Source of the DNA: Loxodes magnus
Taxonomy: Eukaryota > Ciliophora > Karyorelictea > Loxodida > Loxodidae
Assembly (NCBI GenBank): GCA_946699065.1
Contig: CAMPDV010000378.1
Location: 1-64,000 of the forward strand
Length of the DNA: 64,000 bases
Direction of reading: 5' to 3'
How positions within the stretch are numbered: the first letter of the stretch is position 1; the number at the start of each line of letters is the position of its first letter. Below are positions 1 through 62,290 of the stretch, piece by piece. Under the pieces are notes generated by a model. The model did no database searches, was not told the origin of the DNA, and saw nothing but the letters and a program-made list of their open reading frames with translations. The position numbers and the translations under genes are program-made.

Positions 1-679
1 ATTGAACAAGGTTTATCAGTACTGAATAATTATATCAGTATTGAACAAGGTTTATCAGTACTGAATAATTATATCAGTATTGAACAAGGGTTTATCAGTA
101 CTGAATATTTATACCAGTATTGAACAAGGTTTATCAGTACTGAATAATTATACCAGTATTGAACAAGGTTTATCAGTACTGAATAATTATATCAGTATTG
201 AACAAGGTTTATCAGTACTGAATAATTATATCAGTATTGAACAAGGTTTATCAGTACTGAATAATTATACCAGTATTGAACAAGGTTTATCAGTACTGAA
301 TAATTATACCAGTATTGAACAAGGTTTATCAGTACTGAATAATTATATCAGTATTGAACAAGGTTTATCAGTACTGAATAATTATATCAGTATTGAACAA
401 GGTTTATCAGTACTGAATAATTATACCAGTATTGAACAAGGTTTATCAGTACTGAATAATTATACCAGTATTGAACAAGGTTTATCAGTACTGAATAATT
501 ATACCAGTATTGAACAAGGTTTATCAGTACTGAATAATTATACCAGTATTGAACAAGGTTTATCAGTACTGAATAATTATACCAGTATTGAACAAGGTTT
601 ATCAGTACTGAATAATTATACCAGTATTGAACAAGGTTTATCAGTACTGAATAATTTTATCAGTATCTGATAATTTTAT
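1..679 (+). repeat. 39-bp tandem array (about 17 units)
   Basis: About 17 head-to-tail units of 39 bp start at the window edge and decay at 650-700. Each unit is a dimer of about 20 + 19 bp built on CAGTATTGAAC and CAGTACTGAATAA. The core TTATCAGTACTGAATAA is a near-palindrome centred on CAGTACTG. Units differ mainly by ATATCAG versus ATACCAG, and the unit near 80-120 has an extra G. Degenerate singles of the same motif occur at 49710-49800 beside the same 3' stem-loop, so the array looks like an expanded internal repeat of that retroelement family. 39 is a multiple of 3, so the array is trivially open in frame; I do not regard it as coding. Confidence 0.9.
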
Positions 680-775
680 CAGTAACAAACATTCTTGTCA
701 GTATGAAACATTTTTTAAAGAGCTGCGCACCAACGAGAATGCTACGCGCTCTATAATAAAATTTATTTATTTATA
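680..775 (+). mobile_element. 3' end of short retroelement with terminal stem-loop
   Basis: After the array come two more CAGTA-type units, then a GC-rich stem-loop at 720-751 (GAGCTGCGCACC...ACGCGCTC) followed by CTATAATAAAATTTATTTATTT. The same block, in reverse, ends the element at 49651-50124, with matching sequence upstream of the hairpin. The hairpin has an outer GAGC/GCTC stem and an inner GCAC/GTGC-type stem around a loop containing AAYGAG. The position before an AT tail fits a reverse-transcriptase recognition site at a 3' end. The 5' end lies outside the window. Confidence 0.7.
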
Positions 776-1435
776 AATAATAATAAAATAAATATTAATT
801 ATAATAAAATAAGTAAAAATAGAAATAATAATAATACTTATAGTACTAATAGAAATAATTGTAATAAAAGAAAATAAATAATAATAATACTATTATAATA
901 TAATAAATATCAATAATTTTATCAATAATAATAAAATAATTCAAATTATACTAATAATGCTAATTATATTAAATAAAATAGTAATAATAAATATAAATAT
1001 AATAGTAATTCAAATAATAATAAAATATAATTTAATTATCTAAAAATAATTATTATTATATTTATATTATAATAAATAGAAATTATAATTGAAATAATAA
1101 TAATATTAACAATACCAATATTAATAAAAATAATATCATTTCAATAATAATACAAATAAATAACAATAATAATAATTAATATATTAAAATTAATTATTAA
1201 AGTAACTATATAATAAAAATAAAAATATTAAAACTAATAATTTAAAATATAAGAATAATAATAATATAAAAAATAATAATAGAACTAATAATATTACTAA
1301 TAATAATCAAAATATCAATAATAATAATGATAATATTAATAATATTAATAATAATAATAATAATAAATCAATTACTATAATAGTATTTTATAATATCATA
1401 AATAAAAATATAAATTATAACATAACATAATTTAT
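760..1435. repeat. AAT-type low-complexity region
   Basis: Nearly pure A+T built from AAT, ATA and TAATAA runs. No gene is visible. It lies between two retroelement ends and may be an expanded element tail or a microsatellite. Confidence 0.7.
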
Positions 1436-1439
1436 TTAC

Positions 1440-3350
1440 GTGGTGTCAACTTTATTTGATTTTCCACTAATCAAAAAGTTTAGATTTTCACAGAAAATCT
1501 TGCAAATAAGCTAGATTACTCAGATCGTCTTCAATCTCTTCTAAAAACATCAACTTGATCTTCCATCAACCCCATTCACTCTTAACTGAAATTTCTGAAT
1601 CTATTTATTTTAATAAATCATCTTAAATCAAATATGTTCTGCTTTTTATTTATGTCTTTCTATGCATCTGCATCTATCTTTTTTAAGCTACTGAGTCTGT
1701 TAATCTTTTTTTCCGCACATCTATGATTTTGCTAACATTGCTTTAGAATAGATCCAACGCTGACTGATTCAATTTTTGTTTCTTTTCTTTGATCAGTTAG
1801 TAATTAATCAATGTATGCTCTTTTGATCCTGTTCTGTAGTCTTTACCCGATAGTTTTTTAATATGGAAGAATTTCTGAAAAATAAACTATTTTTCTTTGA
1901 CAAGTAGATCTCTTATGAAATCTTTAATATCTTTATCAATTACCTCTTTTATTTTTACTTATAGTGAACGCACTAATTTCTAGAATCTATAGCTACCGAA
2001 GATTATTCTTCAATCCAAGATTTAAGAGGTAAATTTTATTATCCATCTTGCTAATATTAAGATTCGCTAAATTGGGCATTCGTGAATATCTTAATCCTAA
2101 TATTCATTACGTATATTTATGATTTGATTGACATCTTCCACTCCATTATTGTAAAATCTTCAATTTCCATTATCAATAAGGTATCTTTCATAAAGTGCTT
2201 AAGCATCTCCGCTGCAGCTAGCACGTAACCTAAAAAGATAGCATATTTCCTATTTTCGATGCTTATTAAACCTTATATAATTAGGAGGTCCTTATATAAA
2301 AAAATTCCACTCAGTAGCTTCTTAATCATGTGCATGTTTGCATATCTTACATTCTTTTCTATTGTTTAAACATTATTACGGAATTTTATGATTTCTTATA
2401 TTACTGTTTTTATTTCTTTATTATTCCATTGTTCTTGCATAATTATCTCATCTTCTAATTTAATTTATTCCAATGCTTTTCTTGAGTAACTTTCAAATGT
2501 AAAATTATTTCTCTTCGCTACTATACATATTCATCCATCTGCCGTTGATTCCTGATTTAGTAATAGTTTCCTCCTAAACATTAACATACGCTATCATAAA
2601 TAGAATTAAATTTTTACAAATTGTAGTTTATTTCTTAAAATTTCATTTTTTGAGCAAAAAGGCCCCATCTATAATTGCTCTCAGTGATCTTCGCTGTATA
2701 ATTTCTAGTTTATTTAGAATTTCTTACCCTATTATTTCTTCAATAAATGAAATACACTCACTTCCATACCCAAATATTTAGTTGACAAATAATTTTAATA
2801 TCAATGAGGCATTGTATGGGGTGATTCCTTTCTATATGATTAGTTTGCTCAGTATTAATGATTAATTTTTTTGATATTCTAAAATTCTTGATTCAAGATG
2901 CTTCTTATATGAAACATTTTCTTAAATTCTATGTCCTAGATATTTAATTCCCTTACTCTGCTTATATTCATATTTTTTAATGTCACCCCCCTCTTGATTT
3001 ATCACTGAGTTTCCATTTTATAGCATTCATTTGGTCTTTTCGGTAATTTGTATTTATATCTCTTAGATCAAAACTTTAATGCATCTACTATATCTTATAA
3101 GAGATCTGGTTGAACTAGAACTTATACCATCAGTGCTCCTACATATCTTTCTTCTATTGCATATTCTGCTTTCATTTAAATTTTCTAGGTTTCTCCTCCG
3201 ATATTGGAGTAAGCACATGAGTATTTTTCTGAGTCTGTTTCCGTTCTTCGTAGTTCTATTATATTCCAGGTCGCTAAGATTATTAAGAAAAAGTGTTAAG
3301 TGTAAGAAGACTGCCCCGAGATTTGCTTCTGGCTTCTTCTCCTTCTTCTA
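1440..3350 (-). mobile_element. 5'-truncated LINE ORF2 remnant (RT C-terminal half)
   Basis: With TAA/TAG = Gln and TGA = Trp, the minus strand from about 3140 to 2380 reads as the region just after the RT catalytic motif: QPDLLQDIVDALKF, then a KYLGHRI-like block, then IIQRRSLRAI. That order (YLG motif, then an R-R-x-L-R-A-I block) is typical of non-LTR RT C-termini. The copy at 16230-17095 is clearly homologous. Sequence down to 1440 is probably the C-terminal domain and 3' region but has several frame breaks. The endonuclease and most RT motifs are missing. Family placement beyond non-LTR is not claimed. Confidence 0.65.
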
Positions 3351-8681: not shown

Positions 8682-10279
8682 ATGTCCTAGGCGTTAAAAT
8701 GTTAGTTTTGCCAGGAAGATTTTGATAGATAGGAGAGATTGCCAATGTATTACCTTGTAAGCATAATATATGTCATTCGTGTGCTCTCTATTAGTATTAG
8801 AATAATAAGAGTTTTCAGATGTATCTAGTAAGGTTGTTAATAGTTACATAATATACATCTTTCGAAGTTGTAGGAGGACAGTTAGTTGTAGAAGAAATTA
8901 GAGTAAAAATTTTTATTTGACATTATGTCCATTTTGAAAGATCAGGATGGTAGGGTTAAAGCGTTGCGAGGTTAGTTAATAGAGTAACAAGCAAATTTTT
9001 ATATAGTAGGTAGTGAAGCATATAAATGATTATGTGTTTAGGGATAGTATCACAATTTAGAGAGAGTTGGGATAGTTATCTAGGGTAATTGGGTAATAGT
9101 ATGATTAGTTAAGAATATTGTAAAGATAAATGAATTAGTAGGGAAATCAGTTATGGATTTAGTAGACAAGATATGATAATTTTGCGATGGAATAGAGGAT
9201 TTAATAGTTGGTGACTGATGCTTAAGTAGTTTTGTAGAAAAAATCTTAAGTAGCAGTTAAAAGTTTATGAGTAGTTGGATGTTTTGAATAATAATCTATC
9301 CTAGGTTAATTAAAGTTGTTTGAGCTATGAGAATTAGTTAAATATTTTGGGATAAAAAGTTTATAATCTTTAATAAGAGAAGGTTAATTTGGAAAATTAG
9401 ATATAGTATTTGCGGGTTAAAAATTAATAATAGTAGTAATAGGAGGTTAGATTAGTATCTTAGCCTTTCAGTTAATATTAGATAGTATATGATTAAAATT
9501 ATGGTAATTATTTAATATTTTAGATTAAGTATTGAGTGGTCATTCAAGTACAGTTTTATCGGTAGTTATATCTCACGACATGAAATGGATTATCTCAGGC
9601 GTCTGATGATGAAACAATAAAAATATGGAATTTCTAGGATGGGAACCCTCCAGAGAACTTTATAAGGTCATTCTGATTCAGTTTTATAAGTAGTTATATC
9701 TTAAAACATGAAATGGATTATCTCATCAAGTATTGATAAAACAATAAAAAATATGGAATTTCTAAGATGGAACCCTCCAGAGAACTTTATAAGGTCATTC
9801 TGATTCAGTTTTTATCAGTAGTTATATCTTAAAACATGAAATGGATTATCTCATCAAGTATTGATAAAACAATAAAAATATGGAACTTCTAGGATGGATC
9901 CCTCCAGAGAACATTAAAAGGTCATTCTGGTTATGTTTTATCGGTGGTTATATCTCACAACATGAATAGGATTTATCTCAGCCTCTTATGATAAAACAAT
10001 AAAGATATGGGACTTCTCAGCAGGTCTTTTGATTCGAACTATGGAAGGGCATTTAGGTGTTGTTTCAAGTATTTAGATTAGTGTTGATTCGAGTGTAATC
10101 TTTTCTGGATCTTATGATAGTACGATAAAGATATGGAATTTTAAAACGGCTGAGTGTATATAGACTTTATAGGGGCATGCAGATTAAATATTTTCAATAT
10201 CATCGAGTGGCTGATTGTAGATGGTTGGTATCTGGGGGATGGGACTTTTACGTTGAGGAGGTCGAAGATTGCGAGTTGA
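8682..10279 (+). pseudogene. RING finger - WD40 repeat protein, frameshifted
   Basis: ATG 8682 opens a RING finger: C-x2-C at 8700-8711, a one-base shift, then C-x-H-x2-C-x2-C (CKHNICHSC) at 8756-8782. A late C-P-F-[TGA] near 8930 is where the last Cys pair should be. A charged linker follows, then at least five WD40 blades from 9530 with GHSSTVLSVVIS, DETIKIWNF and similar blade endings, and TGA at 10277. RING proteins of this type are usually ubiquitin ligases with the propeller as substrate receptor (family knowledge). Blades near 9660-9890 are almost identical at DNA level, so they were duplicated or converted recently. Several frameshifts argue for a pseudogene unless they are assembly errors. 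All blade tryptophans here are TGG. Confidence 0.75.
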
Positions 10280-20100: not shown

Positions 20101-20920
20101 TTTAAACTAAGGTTAGAAGAGAGTTTCCTTATAATACTTCGATTAATACAAATAAACATTCCTTTCTAAATAAGAAGGCATATATGTCAACGGAGGAATG
20201 TAGGTCATTATAAACTGATTATTATCTATCTTCCGAATCTAGTTTTGTACTGTTATCTCATATTATTACTAGTTAATATTTCGATTATTATTATCAGGGG
20301 ATAGAATATTAGACTTAATTGCTCTCTTAAATACTAATTTCAACAAAATCTTCTGATAAAAAAGATTTTAACGTTAGATTTAAAAATTGCTAAGCTTATC
20401 TAAAAGAAGAAGGGATTAAGGCTAAAATAAAGGGAATCTACTTTAGAACTACAAAAAGATAATTAGATGCAATAATCAGAAAAAATAACTAACCTTGGCT
20501 AAATGGAACTATCAACAAAGGTAAAAATAATAAGTGGAAGATGAGATGCTAATACTCAAACTTATTCTTATTAAGATATATTAACCATTTATCAATTTTA
20601 AATACTTAGACCTGTAATAAAAGAGAAATTAAAACTAGCTCAAACTAAAGTTTTTCTTAAGAAAACTTAAATTACTTAAAGCTTAAAAACGAATAATATA
20701 GTTCCTTTGAAATGATTTTAAAAGAGAAGATTTAAAAAATAATAGCAAAATAAGCAATTTACTTTAATATTAAAGGGAATATCTTCATAATGTCTTATCT
20801 CTGTGAAGGTTTAATTAGTTTAATTATAAGTTTTACTTTAGTCTATTTAATTACGACTATTTAAATAGCAAACTGAGAGAATTATCTATTTTAGTAATAA
20901 AAATGCCGAAACCCGGGATT
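17151..20920 (+). CDS. Very long open frame, hypothetical (up to about 1250 codons)
   Basis: One reading frame stays open from ATG 17151 to TGA 20918-20920 if TAA/TAG = Gln and about 15 internal TGA = Trp. Two stretches contain no TGA at all: 18138-18848 (237 codons, starting with its own ATG at 18138) and 19981-20917 (313 codons). That is unlikely by chance at this base composition. Features include KDWRQVWKRIKYQ near 17490, a hydrophobic segment near 18000 (FILFTFIIIISILF), and a basic stretch around 20430-20540 with RTTKRQLDAIIRKNNQPW. If TGA always stops, two or three separate genes (for instance 18138-18851, 237 aa) are the alternative. No family recognised. The end overlaps the tRNA on the other strand, which is suspicious. 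Confidence 0.4.
20899..20903 (-). terminator. Pol III terminator of tRNA-Phe
   Basis: Five T residues on the minus strand immediately follow the tRNA 3' end, the standard RNA polymerase III stop. Confidence 0.8.
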
Positions 20921-20976
20921 GAACCGGGGACCTTTAGATCTTCAGTCTAACGCTCTCCCAACTGAGCTATTTCGGC
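20904..20976 (-). tRNA. tRNA-Phe (GAA)
   Basis: 73 nt on the minus strand with a complete cloverleaf. The acceptor stem is GCCGAAA/TTTCGGC with discriminator A; the D-arm contains AGCTCAGTTGGGAGAGC. The anticodon stem TTAGA/TCTAA holds loop CTGAAGA, giving anticodon GAA. The T-arm is CCGGG-TTCAATC-CCGGG. The A and B boxes are intact, CCA is not encoded and there is no intron. This is the only tRNA I could find in the window; no Trp or suppressor tRNA is visible. Confidence 0.97.
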
Positions 20977-23750: not shown

Positions 23751-24830
23751 CTTTTTTTAAAAAATAATTTAGATCAACCTTTCTTCTTTTAAATATTAAA
23801 AAAATAAAAAAATATGATTAAATCTATTCTACTATTCTTCAATTCCTTAATTAATTTTTTCGAATATTTTAATCCAATAAATCCACATTAAACTCAGACA
23901 ATATATTTATTATATTGAAAATAAAAATTAAATTTTATTTATTCTAATTAATATTAAAAGTTTTAATTAATTAGTTGCTTTTAAGCATTTATTCAAAATT
24001 TAATTTCTTATTAATGAAATATTATTGCATTTGCATTTATTATTTTTAGTTTATTACAGAGATTTTTTATTTAACCAATATCTTTTGCTTTAAAACCTGA
24101 TTTTTTGATGATTAAACAAAATTATGTTTATTATTTAAAATCTTAAAAGTTGGTAGTTAAAACTTCCAATTACGATAAATTTAAATTGCTTAATTTTCTT
24201 TTTATATATTATTTTATATATTAAATTATGAAATTTAATTTAAATAAAAGTGAAATTTGTTTTCTTAATTTAACTAAAAAGATAATTTATAGCATTTTAA
24301 ATTAAATCCTTATACAAATATAGTTTCCTTTATATTTGCTTTATAATATTTCTTTTTATATTTAAATATAAAATCAAAATATTTTAGAAATTTTGCAACT
24401 TATTTTAAACTATTTTAACAATTTTTAGTTAGAAATATTTGATTAAAAAATTGGAATAATGTTAATTGTAGGAATGAATATGATTTATTTTGAGTTTATT
24501 AAAGTTAAATTTTAATTTTTATTAGTTAAGATAATATAAATATAAAATCTTTAATTTAAATAAAATATTCTATTTGACAAAAAAAGTAAATTAATATTAT
24601 CCAAAATATTAAACTTATTTGAATATAGTATTTTATAAAGTGTTTAATAATCTTTTTTATTATAAATATTTGAAAAAAAATGTTATTCTCTTTGTTTTAA
24701 TTTTTTACTAAAGAAAATATAAATGCTTAAAAAAATATGAAACTATCAATTTTTAAGTTAAAATGTTTGAAAATATATTTATAAATTAATTTTATTTATT
24801 TGATAAATAAGGATTATATTGTAAACGATA
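23750..24830. other. AT-rich spacer
   Basis: Over 80% A+T, homopolymeric, nothing recognisable. Confidence 0.5.
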
Positions 24831-24839
24831 TTTATACTA

Positions 24840-26760
24840 GTTTTGTGAGGGATAGATTTCTATTTAAGGTCTCTTGAAAGAATGTACTATACATCCAAAT
24901 ATGTAGTATGATACAACTGAAATTCCGGTTTAGATAAGTACTAATTTTATCTTGCTATCTATAATATTTAATAATGCTTACCATGATTATCAAGAGAAAT
25001 CATCACTTCATCTTCGATATTTTCTATCTGTTCTTGTGAGTCAGATTTACTAATTTATCCTTCAAAGACCCAATTTCCTTACATAGTATAGCCTCCAGCC
25101 ACTGCACTGGCTATGATGGACACATTGAAATTGAAATTATAAGAGCCTCCATCTTCTTTCTATTTTTTTAGGAATATCACTGTCTGAGATAATAATTTCC
25201 AGGTAAGAACTTTACTGTAGAAGCCTATTTTAAATCCTTCCTTCACTTAATTTTGCACTTGGACTATTTGATAATCTTAACAGAAGAACCTCCTTTAGTT
25301 TTACAGTTTTCTTTTCATAGCAAGTAAAAGTTAAGTTTTATTCACTTGCTTCACTTGACTCACTTACATGATTAAGCGTGGCATTGATTGTCTCAGTATT
25401 TATTATAGCCCTCAGTACCAAGATTCCCACCAAATGCATTACCTCCTATTTCTTAGTTATTAGGAGCTGGTTAAATTTCATTAGAGTTTCCTCCCTTAAG
25501 AAGTTTTTTCAGTGAATGAGGGTGCAAAAGGTTACACTAAACTATAAAAACTTACCTACTACAAGCTTTCCCCATTTTATTTGCTTAGTATATACTTAAA
25601 AACTAAGTTCATCGCGATAAAAATGAAATCTCTATGATAGTTTACATTATAAGTAGCTGACTTAGTAAAATACTAATTGGTGAAATTAAATAAAATACGA
25701 GTCTTAGAACCTTCTACTTTATCAGATATGAACTAAGAGGGGAAATTAGTACAGTTTGGATTTTAAGTTGAAATTTAGCACATTTATAGAGATCAAGTTA
25801 AGTTACTAAGCTTTAAGGATTTGGTTAAAAGTTATTTCAAACAAGCAGTATTTAGTTTCAGTAATTGCTTCAATTTGATTTTTTTATGCTATTTCGATTT
25901 CTTTCACAATACAACTACTAGAAGGATTATCGTTGTTCCATCCATACTTATATTAAGATGAATCGCAATTACTTTACACAACTATTATTCTTAAAGATAA
26001 TTCCTTATGATGCTAATAAGAATTTATAGTAACTTTCTGATTCGCAGCTTAAGCAATTATTCTAAGTATCACATGTTTTGCATTCGTCTTTACAGTTATT
26101 ACACTACTACAATCTTAGTTATTAAATTATATGTATAATTTAAATAAGATGGAAAACTTTTTCCTTCGGATGCTGGCTTGGAGACCCAGCAAGGCAACAA
26201 AAAAATTGAGCACGGAGAATAAATCGGAGGAAGAGAAACTAATGACAAAAGAAAGAAGATGTGACAAGATGGAGAACTCTGAATGTTAGGAATAAACTTT
26301 GTTCATCATAGGTCAGGGAAATGTACCCGTAATCGCATATTGCATCCTATGCTTTGAAAGGAAAAATTACAGGAATGTACTGCAGGAAGAGAAAACAAGG
26401 ATAGAGACATAAAAATTTTTTTTCGACATTAAATAAAATTAATTTAAAGAGCAGCGCACCAACGAGAGAGCTACGCGCTCTATTAATCTAATTTATTATT
26501 TAACATACTGGTTTTAATTGCATTGAGATACACATTTTCCATAGTCAGATGATTTTTCCTGTATTAAATAATATTTATCACTAGACCAACATGATTAAGT
26601 AGTACAAATTTTTTTTTCTTCAAAAGGATAATTCTTAGATTTATAAGTTCAAAATAGACATTTTGGCAACCACTTTGGACATTTACTCTTCTCATTTATT
26701 CGCCGCTTTTTATTTATGAAGTTGATAAATTAAATCTTGATTTATATAATTTCTTTCTAC
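24840..26760 (-). pseudogene. Cysteine-rich surface-type protein, split by SINE-like insertion
   Basis: Minus strand. Block 1 (26690-26505) has KCPKWLPKC, then CTTQSCW, then KCVSQCNQNQYV. Block 2 (26105-25975) has CNNCKDECKTC, then NNCLSCESESYY, then NNSCV. These are the spaced C-x2-C repeats of furin-like/growth-factor-receptor cysteine-rich domains, common in large ciliate surface proteins (family knowledge). The family 1 SINE-like copy at 26152-26490 sits between the blocks in the opposite orientation. The region 25690-24840 is a C-terminal domain also present at 60.65-61.5 kb. Small indels between the two copies break frame here more often. The 5' end is lost at the LINE ending near 26800. 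Confidence 0.6.
26152..26490 (+). mobile_element. SINE-like element, family 1, copy 2
   Basis: About 335 bp: a GC-rich head with CTTGGAGACCCAGCAAGGC, the middle block CATATTGCATCCTATGCTTT, the shared stem-loop at 26449-26480 and the tail TATTAATCTAATTTATTATTT. It matches 13140-12780 over its full length. It lies inside the cysteine-rich gene between two cysteine blocks. Flanking TTATTAAATTATA and TTATTTAACATA may be a degenerate target-site duplication. Confidence 0.8.
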
Positions 26761-32235: not shown

Positions 32236-32424
32236 AATGTGAATTATATCTATAGAGTTTGAGTTTTTGTTCTCTATATATGAAAAACCTTTTATTTAAT
32301 TAAAAAATATAATGCAAACACCTCATAAAACAACAAATATAATTACCATTAAACATTCATTTAAATGAATAACCAATAATTAATCTTTTAAATTATAATT
32401 AAATTAAGTCAAATTATAAGTTGC

Positions 32425-33515
32425 TCAACTCGAAACCCTCCACTTTCTAACTGTATGGTCCTGTCCTCCTCCCGATACCAACCATCTATTATCAACACTC
32501 AATGCTATAGAATTTATATATGATGTATGTGATTGCAAAGTCTATATGCACACACCCTTATCAAAGTTCCATATCTTGATTGTTTTATCATTTGAACCAG
32601 AAAATATAACACTTGAATCATCGCTTAACTGAATACTACATACAGTGCTTGCATGACCTTGAAGAGTACGAATACACTAACCAGAAGAGAAATCCCATAT
32701 CTTAATAGCCCTGTCCCGAGAACCTGATATGATATACCTATTATCTTTAGACAATATTATCGATAAAACATAGCCTGAATGCCCAGATAGAGTTCGCACA
32801 AGCTGACCAGTCTAGAATTCCCAGATCTTTATAGTTGTATCAGAAATTCCGATATAATATATGTAGAGTCATAGGAGATTACTACTGATCTAACTCAAGA
32901 AGTATTTCCCGTTATAGTTCTTTGGAGAGCTCCATTGTGGAAATTTCAGATCTTGATTGTGTAATCAGCAGATGCTGATACTATATAGCTAGAGTCCGGG
33001 GGTGATTATTAACTAATTAACTGAAGAAGTATGTCCTGTTAAAGTTCTTATGAGAGAACCAGTCTATGAATTTCAGATCTTTATCGTGTTATCACCAGAA
33101 GCTGATACAATATAGTTAGAGTCCGAGGAGATTACTACCGATAAAACCGCAGAAATATGTCCTGTTATAGTTCTTAAAAGAGTACCTGTTTAGAAATTCC
33201 AGATCTTTATCGAATTTTCAGGAATTCCTGAACATGATACAATTCAATTCAGGTCCCTTTATATATCTACCGAATAAACGTCTGAAGTGTGACCAGTAAG
33301 GATTTAGTCTAAAAAATATTAAAGAAATACCTTTACTTTGGTCATATCTGATCTTATTTATAAGTCTTTAGTAACATAAGTTGGGCAGAATTTCATACTT
33401 AAAATGAAGAAGAGATATTTTCCCAAGAATGTGGTTTCTCGCTCTTAAGATTTTTTCTTAAAAAAATACTTTTAGCAAATTGCTTTTCTTTTTTCTCCAT
33501 TTCATTTCTCTCCAT
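32425..33515 (-). pseudogene. WD40 repeat protein, degraded copy
   Basis: Homologue of the intact gene at 51076-52156. It starts at ATG 33515 and ends at TGA 32425-32427 after the same R-V-S-S. The 22-nt GT-AG intron is at 33309-33330. Seven blades can be followed, but there are at least three frame breaks: one extra A in exon 1, one in blade 3 and a small deletion in blade 4. The three Trp codons that are TGA in the 51-kb gene are TGA here too, in the same positions. One blade tryptophan is TGG here but TAG there. Confidence 0.8.
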
Positions 33516-33519
33516 TTTA

Positions 33520-34470
33520 ATTTTTATAATTTACTTTAATAAATATTTAATTAAAATAACTCAATAAATTTTCATGATTTAATTTAAATACAATTTAACA
33601 ATTAAATTATTTATTTATTAAGCTTACTTATAAATATCTTCTAAAACATTTATTTAAAAATTCCACTTTTATCTTAAAACGAGACAGATATAAAACTATC
33701 CATACAGTGTACAAGCTTTTACAATTTTAATTATTTTATTTCTTTTTACTTTTAAATAAAAGGATAATTTATTATATCAAAAGTTTATAACGAAGAATTA
33801 TATCCTTATTATAATAACTTTAATATACATCCATTAATTAAAACTTATTTGTGCTTTAAATCAAAAACTTTTAATAAGAAAACCTTATTTCTTTGTAGAT
33901 CCTTTTAAATGATAATAAAATATTATAATTCTTTTTAAATCTACTGTTATTAATTATTATTTTCACTTACATTTAATCAAAAAAATTATTTATTTAAGCT
34001 ATTTACTAATTAAAAAATATTAAATAAAATAAGTTTCTTATTAATTAGTTTAAATAAATATTAAAAAACATCAAATTACTTAAAATAAAGCATTTTTAGT
34101 ATTCATAAGATAAACTCTTTTAATTGTCCATTTTCTTACTACTATTTCATTAAAACTTTTTATTTATAAAGGTCTCTCTTAAAATAATAAACTAATATAA
34201 TTTATTATAATGTTGGATCTATCAAAGCTATTAAGCAAACTATATTATTTTTAATTTAATTTAATGTTGGATCTAAGAAAATATATAAATATAATAAATA
34301 TAAGTAGTAGAAAGTAAATATTTAAACTAACTATAAATGGTGTATCACTAATTTTATCTTACAATTATTAAATAGTAATATTTAATTTTATTATTAAAAT
34401 AAGCTTTAATATATTTAATTATGTCTATTAAATACTTAATATTTTATCCTTTTAGCTTTATTAGTTATTA
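33520..34470. other. AT-rich upstream region of WD40 copy
   Basis: Matches 50130-51070 in reverse. No gene seen. It may carry the promoter of the WD40 genes, but I see no specific element. Confidence 0.4.
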
Positions 34471-50696: not shown

Positions 50697-50828
50697 ATAA
50701 AGTTAAAAGTTAAAAAGTTAAAAAGCTTTGTTAAAGACTTAGTAGTCAGCCATCTGACCTATTCTATCAGCTTGTTTCCATTAGTTTGTCTTGAATTTCT
50801 ACTAGGGTTAGTTAGGCGGTGTAGCATA
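50697..50828 (-). mobile_element. Very short SINE-like insertion (about 130 bp)
   Basis: Reverse of 14889-15014: it starts GCTACACCGCCTAACTAA, contains GACAAACTAATGGA and GATGGCTGACTACTAAG, and ends in a (TTAACTT)n tail. It is absent from the left arm near 33775, giving a clean empty site. It begins exactly inside the 3' stem-loop of the nested gag-only element at 14150-15014, so it is a 5'-truncated copy of that element's 3' end. Confidence 0.75.
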
Positions 50829-51075
50829 ATAATTTATCCTTTTATTTGAAAGTAAAAAGAAATAAAATAATTTAAATTTTAAAAGTTTGTACACTATTAG
50901 TTTAATATCTTATCTTGTTTTAAGTCAAAAAAAGAAAAATAAATGTTTAAGAAATAAGATATTTATAAGTATGCTTAATAAATAATTAAATTGTTTAATT
51001 TTATTGAAATTAAGTAAGTAAAATTAATTGAGTTATTTTAATTAAATAGTTATTGAAGTAAGTTATAAAATTAAA

Positions 51076-52156
51076 ATGGAGATAAAATAAACGGAGAAAA
51101 AAGAAAAGCAATTTACTAAAAGTATTTTTTTAAGAAAACTCTTAAGAGCGAGAAGCCACATCCTGGGGAAAATATCTCTACTTCATTTTAAGTATGAAAT
51201 TCTACCTAACTTATGCTACTAAAAGTTAATAAAAGAGATCAATTATGATCAAAGTAAAGGTATTTCTTTATTATTTTTTAGACTAAATCCTTACTGGTCA
51301 CACTTCACCTGTTTTATCGGTAGCCATATCAAGTGACATGAATTGAATTGTATCAGGTTCAGGATATCCTGAGTATTCGATAAAGATCTGGAATTTCCAG
51401 ACAGGTTCTCTCCTTAGAACTATAGCAGGCCATACTTCTACAGTTTACTCGGTAGTAATCTCCTCTGACTCTAGCTATATAGTATCAGGATCTGATAAAA
51501 CCATAAAGATCTGAAACTTATAGACTGGTTCTCTCATAAGAACTTTAACGGGTCATACTTCCTCAGTTAGATCGGTAGTAATCTCTCTAGACTCTAGATA
51601 TATCGTATCAGGATCTGAAGACAAAACCATAAATATCTGAAATTTCCACAATGGTTCTCTCCAAAGAACTATAACAGAGCATACTACCTCAGTTTTAACG
51701 GTAGTAATCGCCTATGACTCTAGATATATTATATCGGGATCTTAAGATAACATTATAAATATCTAGGATTTCTAGACAGGTCAGCTTGTGCGAACTCTTA
51801 CTGGGCATTCAGATTATGTTAGATCGGTGATAGTGTCTAAGGATAATAGATACATAATATCAGGTTCTTATGACAAGACAATTAAGATATGGGACTTCTC
51901 TTCTGGTTAGTGTATTCGTACTCTTTAAGGTCATTCAAGAGCTGTACTTAGTATTCAGTTAAGTGTTGATTCAAGTGTAATATTTTCTGGTTCATGGGAT
52001 AAAACAATCAAGATCTGGAACTTTGATAAGGGTGAGTGTATATAGATTTTATAAGGACATACAAATTTAATTTAATCTATAGCATTGAGTTTTGATAATA
52101 GATGGTTGGTATCGGGAGAGGACAAGACGATAAGAAAGTGGAGAGTTTCGAGTTGA
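51076..52156 (+). CDS. Seven-blade WD40 repeat protein, 352 aa
   Basis: ATG 51076, 22-nt intron 51260-51281, TGA 52154-52156; spliced length 353 codons with no frameshift. After a basic N-terminal region of about 60 residues come seven WD40 blades ending KIWNFQ, KI[TGA]NLQ, NI[TGA]NFH, NIQDFQ, KIWDFS, KIWNFD and RKWRVSS. GH and SGS-D dipeptides are in register. Blade 1 also has SSDMN[TGA]IVSG where the RING-WD40 locus has HDMKWIISG. A seven-bladed propeller is a protein-interaction scaffold. Internal TGA (51344, 51512, 51638) always replaces the conserved Trp. If TGA were stop here, no blade would be complete. It is unlike the RING-WD40 locus in having no RING. Confidence 0.85.
51260..51281 (+). 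other. 22-nt spliceosomal intron
   Basis: GTATTTCTTT...TTTTTTAG. Removal joins ...YDQSK to DQILTGHTS in frame; retention would shift the frame, since 22 is not a multiple of 3. The degraded copy has the same-length intron with one substitution at 33309-33330. Very short introns are typical of several ciliate groups. Confidence 0.75.
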
Positions 52157-52279
52157 GTAACTTGCTATTTAACTTAATTTAATTTTACGATTAAAGATAT
52201 AAGATATTGGTAATGCATTTAAATAAATGTTGAATGGTAATAATGCTTGTAATTTTATGAAGTTTTTTTTTTTAATTGA

Positions 52280-53540
52280 TTTATTAAAAAGTTGTATATT
52301 CTTAAATATTCTTGGTTTAAAAAAAAGGTTGAGTAATATAGGTTATAGAAATTAGTGAAGTATGTTGATTTAAAGTGGGTAATTTTTAAAAATATTTTAA
52401 ATATAATTTTGTTAAATAAAGACGTAAAATAAGTTTAAGTTTAATTTTATTCTATAAAATTTTATAGATTTATTTTTAGATTTTGTAGAAATTTCAAGTT
52501 AAATATAAATTTTCATTTTTTTTGTGAAGTAATTTAAATATTTCTTATAAGGTTAAAGTTAGTTTATAATTTTGATTATTAATTATTAGTATTAATTATT
52601 ATTAATTATTATTTATTATTATTATTAAATTTTAATATTTAAGTTTAATATTTTATGTTTCCCATTGGAAAATAAAATTTTCTGATTGTAAGTTTTTATT
52701 TTTCAATTTAAGAGCATGAATTTCATGAAAATAAAAAATTTGTTTTTTGCTAAGCGTTTTACACTACCAAAGATTTTCGGCACGGAATAAGATTAATTAT
52801 TTCGAAATAAAAAATGTTAAAATTGGAATAAAAATTTTGAAAGTAGTTTTTAAAAAAGTTTTTAAAATTTCTTTGAAAAATGTTTCTAAAATAATTATGA
52901 AAATAGTTATCTAAAATCGTTTTGGAAATAAAATTTTAAAATTGGAATAAATTTTCAAGAAAAAATTCCACATATAAAAAAATTTTTGAGAAAAAGATAA
53001 GAATAAAAAAATTTTTATAGTCAAAATAGAATTTGGAAATCTTTTTTGTTGAAATGGTATTTTGTAAAAACAAAAACATTTTTTTTGTTAGAAAAATTTT
53101 TTGATTTGAAGAATTTTTAACAAAATTGTTTTGTTTTTGATTTAAAAATATATTTTTTTCGAGTAAAAGAAAAAATTCGCTTTAAAAATTTTTAATATTA
53201 TAAAAATTTACTTAAATGAAAAGGATCTCAAGAAAAAAGGAGATATAATTAAATAAACCATGAAATCGTGAAAAAATTATCCTTTTTTCGCTCTGAATTA
53301 TACGTTACAAAAGATTTCGGGATTGATAAATCTTTTTCTTAAAGGGATATAATTTTAAAAGATTTGAAAAGTTTTTTAAATTACTTTTAAGAAGTAAAGA
53401 TAAAAAAATAAATGACAATTTTAGGAAGAAAAAAAATCAGTAAACAATTTTTTCTATAAGAGGGCTTAAAACTAACTTTTTAATAGATATTGCGAATTTT
53501 TAAAATAACTAATCAAAAAGAGCTAAAAAATCTTTTTATA
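52280..53540. other. AT-rich spacer with a dispersed motif
   Basis: No gene. It contains two diverged copies (about 52740 and 53285) of a motif around GCTCTGAATTTTACACTACA that also occurs near 11075. Confidence 0.4.
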
Positions 53541-60650: not shown

Positions 60651-62290
60651 AATTAGTATTTTACTCAGTCAGCTACTTATAGTGAAACTATCTTAGAGAC
60701 TTCATTTTTATCGCATGAGCTTAGTCTTTAAGTATATACTAAGCAAATAAAATGGGAAAAGCTTGTAGTGGGTAAGTTTTTATAGTTTGTGTGACCTTTT
60801 GCACCCTCATTCACTGAAAAAACTTCTTAAGGAGGAGACTCTAATGAAATTTAACCAGCTCCTAATAACTAAGAAATAGGAGGTAATGCATTTGGTGGAA
60901 ATCTTGGTACTGAGGCTATAATAAATACTGAGATATTCAATGTCACGCTTAATCATGTAAGTGAGTCAAGTGAAGCAAGTGAATAAAATTTAACTCTTAC
61001 TTGCTATGAAAAGAAAAACTGTAAAACTAAAGGAGGTTCTTCTGTTAAGATAAAAAATAGTCCAAGTGCAAAATTAAGTGAAGGAGGGATTTAAAATAGG
61101 CTTCTACAGTAAAGTTCTTACCTGGAAATTATTATCTCAGACAGTGATATTCCTAAAAAATAGAAAGAAGATGGAGGCTCTTATAATTTCAATTTCAATG
61201 TGTCCATCATAGCCAGTGCTGTGGCTGAAAGCTATACTATGTAAGGAAATTGGGTCTTTGAAGGATAAATTAGTAAATCTGACTCACAAGAACAGATAGA
61301 AAATATGGAAGATGAAGTGATAATTTCTCTTGATAATCATGGTAAGCATTATTAAATATTATAGATAGCAAGATAAAATTAGTACTTATCTTAACCGGAA
61401 TTTCAGTTGCATCATGCTACATATTTGGATGTATAGTACATTCTTTCAAGAGATCTTAAATAGAAATCTATCCCTCACAAGACTAGTATAAATATAGGTG
61501 TTTTTTGAATTACTTAGGCCTCTCGATCTTTAGATGTTTGATGCTAATCAAGATAAAGATATTTAGCTCAAGAAGGCTTTGATAGACTTATTAACTTGAA
61601 TAATCCAAGCATTAAATTAAAATTTTAAAATGGTTATTTATTAAATATGCTTAATGCTTTAGATAGCATTAATCTTACATAACTTAATAGCTTATTATCT
61701 AAATGCATCTTTATGTATTATTTACATATTAGGATTTGTATTATACAGCATTTTATAAAAAATAAAAATAAATCTGCATTTTATAAAATATCGAAGAAAT
61801 AAGATAAGTTTCTAGCTGTTCGACTAGCTACCAAAAGGGTAACATAAGAAACAAGATTTCGATTTTTTGTGGTTATTTCATAAAATAATAGTCTATCTTT
61901 CGTCAAGAAGCATTTCTAGTTTTATTTCAGTAAAAAAATCTTAATTTGCTATCAAGTGGGAATAGTTGAAAATTTAAGGAGTGGATATTCAAATAAAAAA
62001 AGCATTTAATTAAGGAAGACAATATCTCAGGAAAAATGAGAATACTAAATTGAATCTGAGTACTAGGATAGAACTAAAAGTATTTTGAAATATAAAAAGA
62101 CTAATTAAATAAAATAATAGTGAACATATAAAACATTAGGAGAATGAATAATAGATTGCTAAAGATATTATATAATTTAATTTTCTTCTTAAATCTAAAG
62201 GCCAACATTTTCAAAATGGAAATAGAGAAAAAATCTTAAAATCACAAGCTGAGCATATAAAACGAATAGGTAGCTAATTTATATAAATAC
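60651..62290 (+). CDS. C-terminal region of Cys-rich gene family, second copy, partial
   Basis: Inverted paralogue of 24840-25690. One frame from about 60651 to 61505 (about 285 codons, a single TGA) reads FAPSFTEKTSQGGDSNEI, NAFGGNLGTEAIINTEIF, NLTLTCYEKKNCKTKGGSS, SYNFNFNVSIIASAVAE and GNWVFEGQISKSDSQ. This is a soluble, probably extracellular-type domain I cannot name. Shifts in T-runs near 61505 and 61563 continue into FDANQDKDI (EF-hand-loop-like) and NLNNPSIKLKFQNGYLLNM, then basic sequence to about 62290. The cysteine-rich part found at 26 kb is absent upstream. Long conservation between copies makes this a real coding region. Confidence 0.55.

Follow-up and report, generated by a model that had tools for sequence, protein, structure and literature searches.

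The stretch of DNA analysed here (the window, 64,000 nt) almost certainly comes from the macronuclear genome of Loxodes magnus and follows the context-dependent karyorelict code, NCBI table 27. This code has already been published and is not new, and the WD40 gene described below (gene A) is one more example of it. According to the part of PMC11441545 that deals with the code (with reference to Seah et al. 2022), table 27 applies to karyorelicts, Loxodes among them: UAA and UAG are read as Gln, while UGA is the only stop and is also read as Trp at a sufficient distance from the poly(A) tail. A codon with both a sense and a stop meaning goes against the principle that a stop codon has one meaning only, and shows that codon reassignment may proceed by way of an ambiguous intermediate, a point that has already been made for karyorelicts including Loxodes. 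The value of the present work is that of an independent check, in which the right code was found from raw sequence alone.

Structure and codons of the WD40 gene

The original prediction described a spliced WD40 gene of 353 codons with three internal TGAs and a further TGA at its end, and splicing out the predicted intron gave exactly such a gene, with the stop counted among the 353 codons (Table 1). Read with TGA as Trp and TAA/TAG as Gln, its product matches solved beta-propellers across its repeats, and with TGA read as Trp it scores 243 bits against the Pfam family PF00400 (cut-off 27), with seven passing stretches. The frame of exon 1 is uncertain, since a paralog (B) differs there by a 1-base indel.

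The three internal TGAs had been placed on the invariant Trp of the propeller blades. This holds for the TGAs of blades 2 and 3, which occupy the core Trp, but not for that of blade 1, which falls in a second, Trp-rich column. Elsewhere in gene A this second column contains Tyr or Val, except that blade 7, the last (DNRWLVSG), has Trp. It is TGG in a third copy of the gene (C, motifs DMKW and NMKW) and in 624 of the 630 repeats of WD40 arrays elsewhere in the genome, so that Trp is the natural reading of the blade 1 TGA as well. What the original prediction overlooked is the TAG at the core Trp position of blade 4.

Table 1. Coordinates of the features discussed, in the window unless another locus (L) is named
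Feature	Position	Strand	Remarks
Gene A, exon 1	51076..51259	+	184 nt; N-terminal, no WD40 repeat
Gene A, predicted intron	51260..51281	+	22 nt, GT...AG, GTATTTCTTTATTATTTTTTAG; from sequence only
Gene A, exon 2	51282..52156	+	beta-propeller of 7 WD40 repeats
In-frame TGA, blade 1	51344..51346	+	Tyr/Trp column (DMN-TGA-IVSG); TGA in B; TGG in same motif of C
In-frame TGA, blade 2	51512..51514	+	core Trp (KI-TGA-NL); TGA in B
In-frame TGA, blade 3	51638..51640	+	core Trp (NI-TGA-NF); TGA in B, inside frameshifted stretch
TAG (Gln), blade 4	51764..51766	+	replaces core Trp; TGG in B; with this code, Gln in A and Trp in B
Terminal TGA	52154..52156	+	172 codons past the last internal TGA
Paralog B	32295..33775	-	83% identical to 50826-52288 (gene A region)
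Third WD40 copy C	9538..10172	+	frameshifted, repeats across three frames; TGG at the 51344 column
tRNA-Phe(GAA)	20904..20976	-	sole tRNA of the window by ARAGORN or Rfam
Coding-like stretch	60663-61346	+	no Pfam match
Coding-like stretch	24765-25808	-
eRF1, first copy	L007, 1456-2766		intronless
eRF1, second copy	L008, 1456-2766		intronless; same contig as L007, about 35 kb apart
eRF3	L019, about 561-3104	-	one in-frame TGA

The window also contains two coding-like stretches that are similar to one another, NHVSESSEASEQNLT and SSYLEIIISDSDIPKK being among the segments they have in common.

Gene A as a witness to the code

It is possible, though we consider it less likely than not, that the genome uses this code while gene A is itself a recent pseudogene, in which case its TGAs would be uninformative by themselves. 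Three 1-base indels separate A from B; the two in exon 2 disrupt the WD40 frame of B and not that of A, while the one in exon 1 could belong to either copy. Exon 2 of A stays open for about 290 codons, with net gaps relative to B of three and six bases, which speaks against decay of A, whereas the frameshifts in both of its relatives in the window (B and C) and a core Trp position that reads TAG in A but TGG in B would fit a decaying copy. All three in-frame TGAs are common to A and B and therefore probably predate the split between the two, at odds with a recent loss of function.

The pattern of substitutions also bears on this question. Changes between A and B in exon 2 fall on the three codon positions 39, 36 and 66 times (third-position excess, P = 0.0006), and after the last internal TGA 25, 21 and 35 times (P = 0.04). 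This excess, which counts against a pseudogene, together with a dN/dS between A and B of about 0.46, suggests some constraint on the frame of A beyond its internal TGAs, although a dN/dS of this size is also a weak point of gene A. In exon 2, A and B are 84% identical; the figure is 89% far upstream and 84% immediately upstream, and 75% immediately downstream. The drop in the downstream flank favours a functional exon, but the upstream flanks match B as well as, or better than, the coding part does, as they might if A were a pseudogene, so that the coding part of A is not distinct from the upstream DNA. Had gene A decayed neutrally, three newly arisen TGAs would all have landed on Trp codons with a probability of 0.003 to 0.22, according to the mutation spectrum assumed; the upper value, reached under strong transition and AT bias, is again compatible with a pseudogene.

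Gene A is probably still translated. At the same time, it is a poorer and rather more worn witness than the original prediction held. We rejected it as a stand-alone proof of the code, since the mutational null survives a strongly AT-biased spectrum; with a null probability of up to 0.22, gene A alone is weak evidence, and it is the other genes that decide.

Stop, Gln and Trp codons in other genes

We searched the genome (705,730,643 bases in 7843 contigs) for tubulins with Pfam and scored 150 places of 258 candidates, many of them near-identical repeats. The 30 best-scoring full-length tubulins (L020-L049) all stop at a TGA directly after the acidic tail, and none at TAA or TAG, although these 30 form two families or clusters and are far from being 30 independent cases. 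TAA and TAG make up 192 of the 462 codons read as Gln in the same 30 genes. Both copies of eRF1 likewise terminate at TGA, and their 436-aa frames contain 20 (L007) and 21 (L008) in-frame TAA/TAG codons. The original prediction that TAA and TAG encode Gln is thus borne out by the eRF1 frames and by the tubulin Gln codons.

The product of the L007 eRF1 gene aligns to solved eRF1 over residues 6-432. By this alignment and with hand numbering it has Ala at the position of human Ser70 and Phe at that of Tyr125, and the L008 copy appears by eye to be the same. Part of PMC12153298 describes the role of eRF1 Ser70.

As to which of the known ambiguous codes applies, the prediction had named two, that of karyorelicts and that of Condylostoma. 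The code of Condylostoma magnum is NCBI table 28. A code of this type, in which UAA and UAG would also be able to stop, likewise gives UGA the meanings of both Trp and stop, but it is very improbable here, considering that full-length tubulins ended in TGA in 30 of 30 cases and in TAA or TAG in none, albeit in two families only, and that the Loxodes code given in the relevant part of PMC11441545 has UGA as its sole stop. Of the two codes named, it is the karyorelict one that fits.

To see where TGA falls within tubulins we turned to the domains themselves. At least one in-frame TGA was present in 116 of the 150 scored places and none in the other 34 (counted from the table). We aligned 65 tubulin domains, namely the 30 top matches, which have no TGA in the domain, and 35 picked by hand so as to be varied, of which 31 contain TGA; as this sample is not random, the frequency of TGA in it is meaningless, whereas the columns in which TGA occurs are informative. 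Two Trp columns out of about 190 accounted for 39 of the 49 TGA codons, with ten elsewhere. Column 18 had TGG in 43 domains, TGA in 19 and another codon in three, while column 110 had TGG in 11, TGA in 20 and codons for Phe, Tyr and Leu in 27, six and one, respectively. We take these columns to be Trp21 and beta-tubulin Trp101. Clustering at 85% identity gave three clusters and 27 singletons; of the latter, 23 carried TGA at column 18, column 110 or both. The tubulin Trp columns offer a quick test of the code from within the genome. Near-identical tubulin-like places were also seen close together on the same contigs, as in the C441 series, where they are spaced 3342 bases apart.

Trp codons in the 30 best-scoring full-length tubulins were TGG in all 96 cases and never TGA. 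Divergent tubulins, by contrast, often use TGA. Genes with high expression may avoid UGA; alternatively, the TGG-only tubulins may reflect an effect of ranking, as a read-through stop may cost score.

In-frame TGAs were also found in three genes of one further 10-kb stretch (L019), and in each of them homology continues beyond the TGA. The gene for kynurenine aminotransferase has a TGA at the second Trp of its GWKxGW motif, a residue that is Trp in the three solved relatives printed (two of which are the same enzyme), while the other two of its three TGAs fall in columns that are not Trp in solved relatives. Pelota has one in-frame TGA, aligned to Asn or Phe, and that of eRF3 aligns to a Tyr of solved eRF3a. 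These two genes, each with an in-frame TGA, thus share a single 10-kb stretch. The bacterial RF2 gene regulates itself through its own UGA, and by analogy the UGA within eRF3 might act as a feedback sensor that would lower eRF3 synthesis if termination became too strong; such a codon could sense the strength of termination, being contested by tRNA-Trp and eRF1-eRF3. We regard this as a long shot, and the position of the codon may equally be due to chance.

The giant WD40 arrays, with their many TGA-bearing matches, were considered as further support and then dropped. We examined 630 repeats from the arrays in eight 10-kb stretches (L009-L016), one of which, L016, the only stretch checked for this, is a single tandem array of a 126-bp unit in 79.4 copies with a 98% match. 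In the two Trp columns of these repeats TGG occurred 624 and 611 times and TGA not once, all 258 TGAs falling in other columns. Since the repeats have been homogenised and perhaps do not code for protein, we used the arrays neither for nor against the code. Nevertheless, TGAs outside Trp columns do count against a reading of UGA as Trp, and they include ten of 49 in the tubulins, two of three in the aminotransferase, those of eRF3 and Pelota, and all 258 in the arrays.

On the whole, the predicted double meaning of UGA is upheld, as Trp by the Trp columns of the tubulins and the aminotransferase, and as stop by the TGA-ended tubulins (30 of 30) and eRF1 genes (two of two), which represent few families. 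Had the prediction been wrong, conserved Trp in single-copy housekeeping genes was expected never to be TGA; we found 39 TGA codons in the Trp columns of tubulins, which are multicopy genes, and one more at the GWKxGW motif of the aminotransferase. Under the plain ciliate code (table 6) UGA would always be a stop and the TGA-bearing copies would be pseudogenes, in keeping with the absence of internal TGA from the 30 best-scoring tubulins (0 of 96 Trp codons), but the concentration of TGA in the Trp columns of otherwise open tubulin domains (39 of 49), the TGAs inside eRF3, Pelota and aminotransferase, and the Loxodes code as set out in part of PMC11441545 leave this explanation with next to no credibility.

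Decoding near the transcript end and comparison with known codes

On the karyorelict code, UAA and UAG would be decoded as Gln, and, following the literature, UGA would be read as Trp when far from the end of the mRNA and as a stop when close to it, where the 3' UTR, being short and rich in AU, would together with the poly(A) tail favour release at the terminal UGA. Gene A would be an ordinary gene of this genome; the window contains three related copies including it, and the other two are frameshifted. As outlined in part of PMC4967479, the model of Swart et al. has translation as the default at such codons, with release prevailing only near the transcript end, aided by poly(A)-binding protein. 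Gene A is consistent with this model: its last internal TGA precedes the stop by 172 codons and its last TAA by 27, and its final 20 codons are free of both, although this is one gene and no survey. A depletion of TGA and TAA over about 20 codons before the stop is described for table 27 in part of PMC11441545.

As for the tRNA that would read UGA, a Loxodes tRNA-Trp(CCA) with a 4-bp anticodon stem has been reported by work cited in PMC13092985 and PMC12005148, as far as the relevant parts of these two papers go. Under the bacterial code, ARAGORN detected no tRNA other than tRNA-Phe(GAA) in the 64-kb window, in agreement with Rfam, and none in six further loci of the genome.

Gene A resembles what is known of L. 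magnus in its use of UAA/UAG for Gln and of UGA for both Trp and stop, in its short predicted intron and in its AT-rich 3' flank, and we found no difference. Its coding sequence has a GC content of 34.1%, against 18.5% in the next 200 nt; the sections of PMC11441545 on L. magnus give 33.5% for coding sequences and 18.6% for 3' UTRs, and a mean intron length of 19.3 bp, with 93% of introns at most 25 bp long. Condylostoma magnum, in the part of PMC4967479 concerned with its code, is similar in that UGA means Trp or stop depending on position, and differs in that all three codons can stop, whereas the 30 tubulins here all stop at TGA. Blastocrithidia, as presented in part of PMC12153298, likewise has a codon of dual meaning and reads UGA as Trp, but there UAR encodes Glu and UAA is the stop, while here TAA and TAG encode Gln and TGA is the stop.
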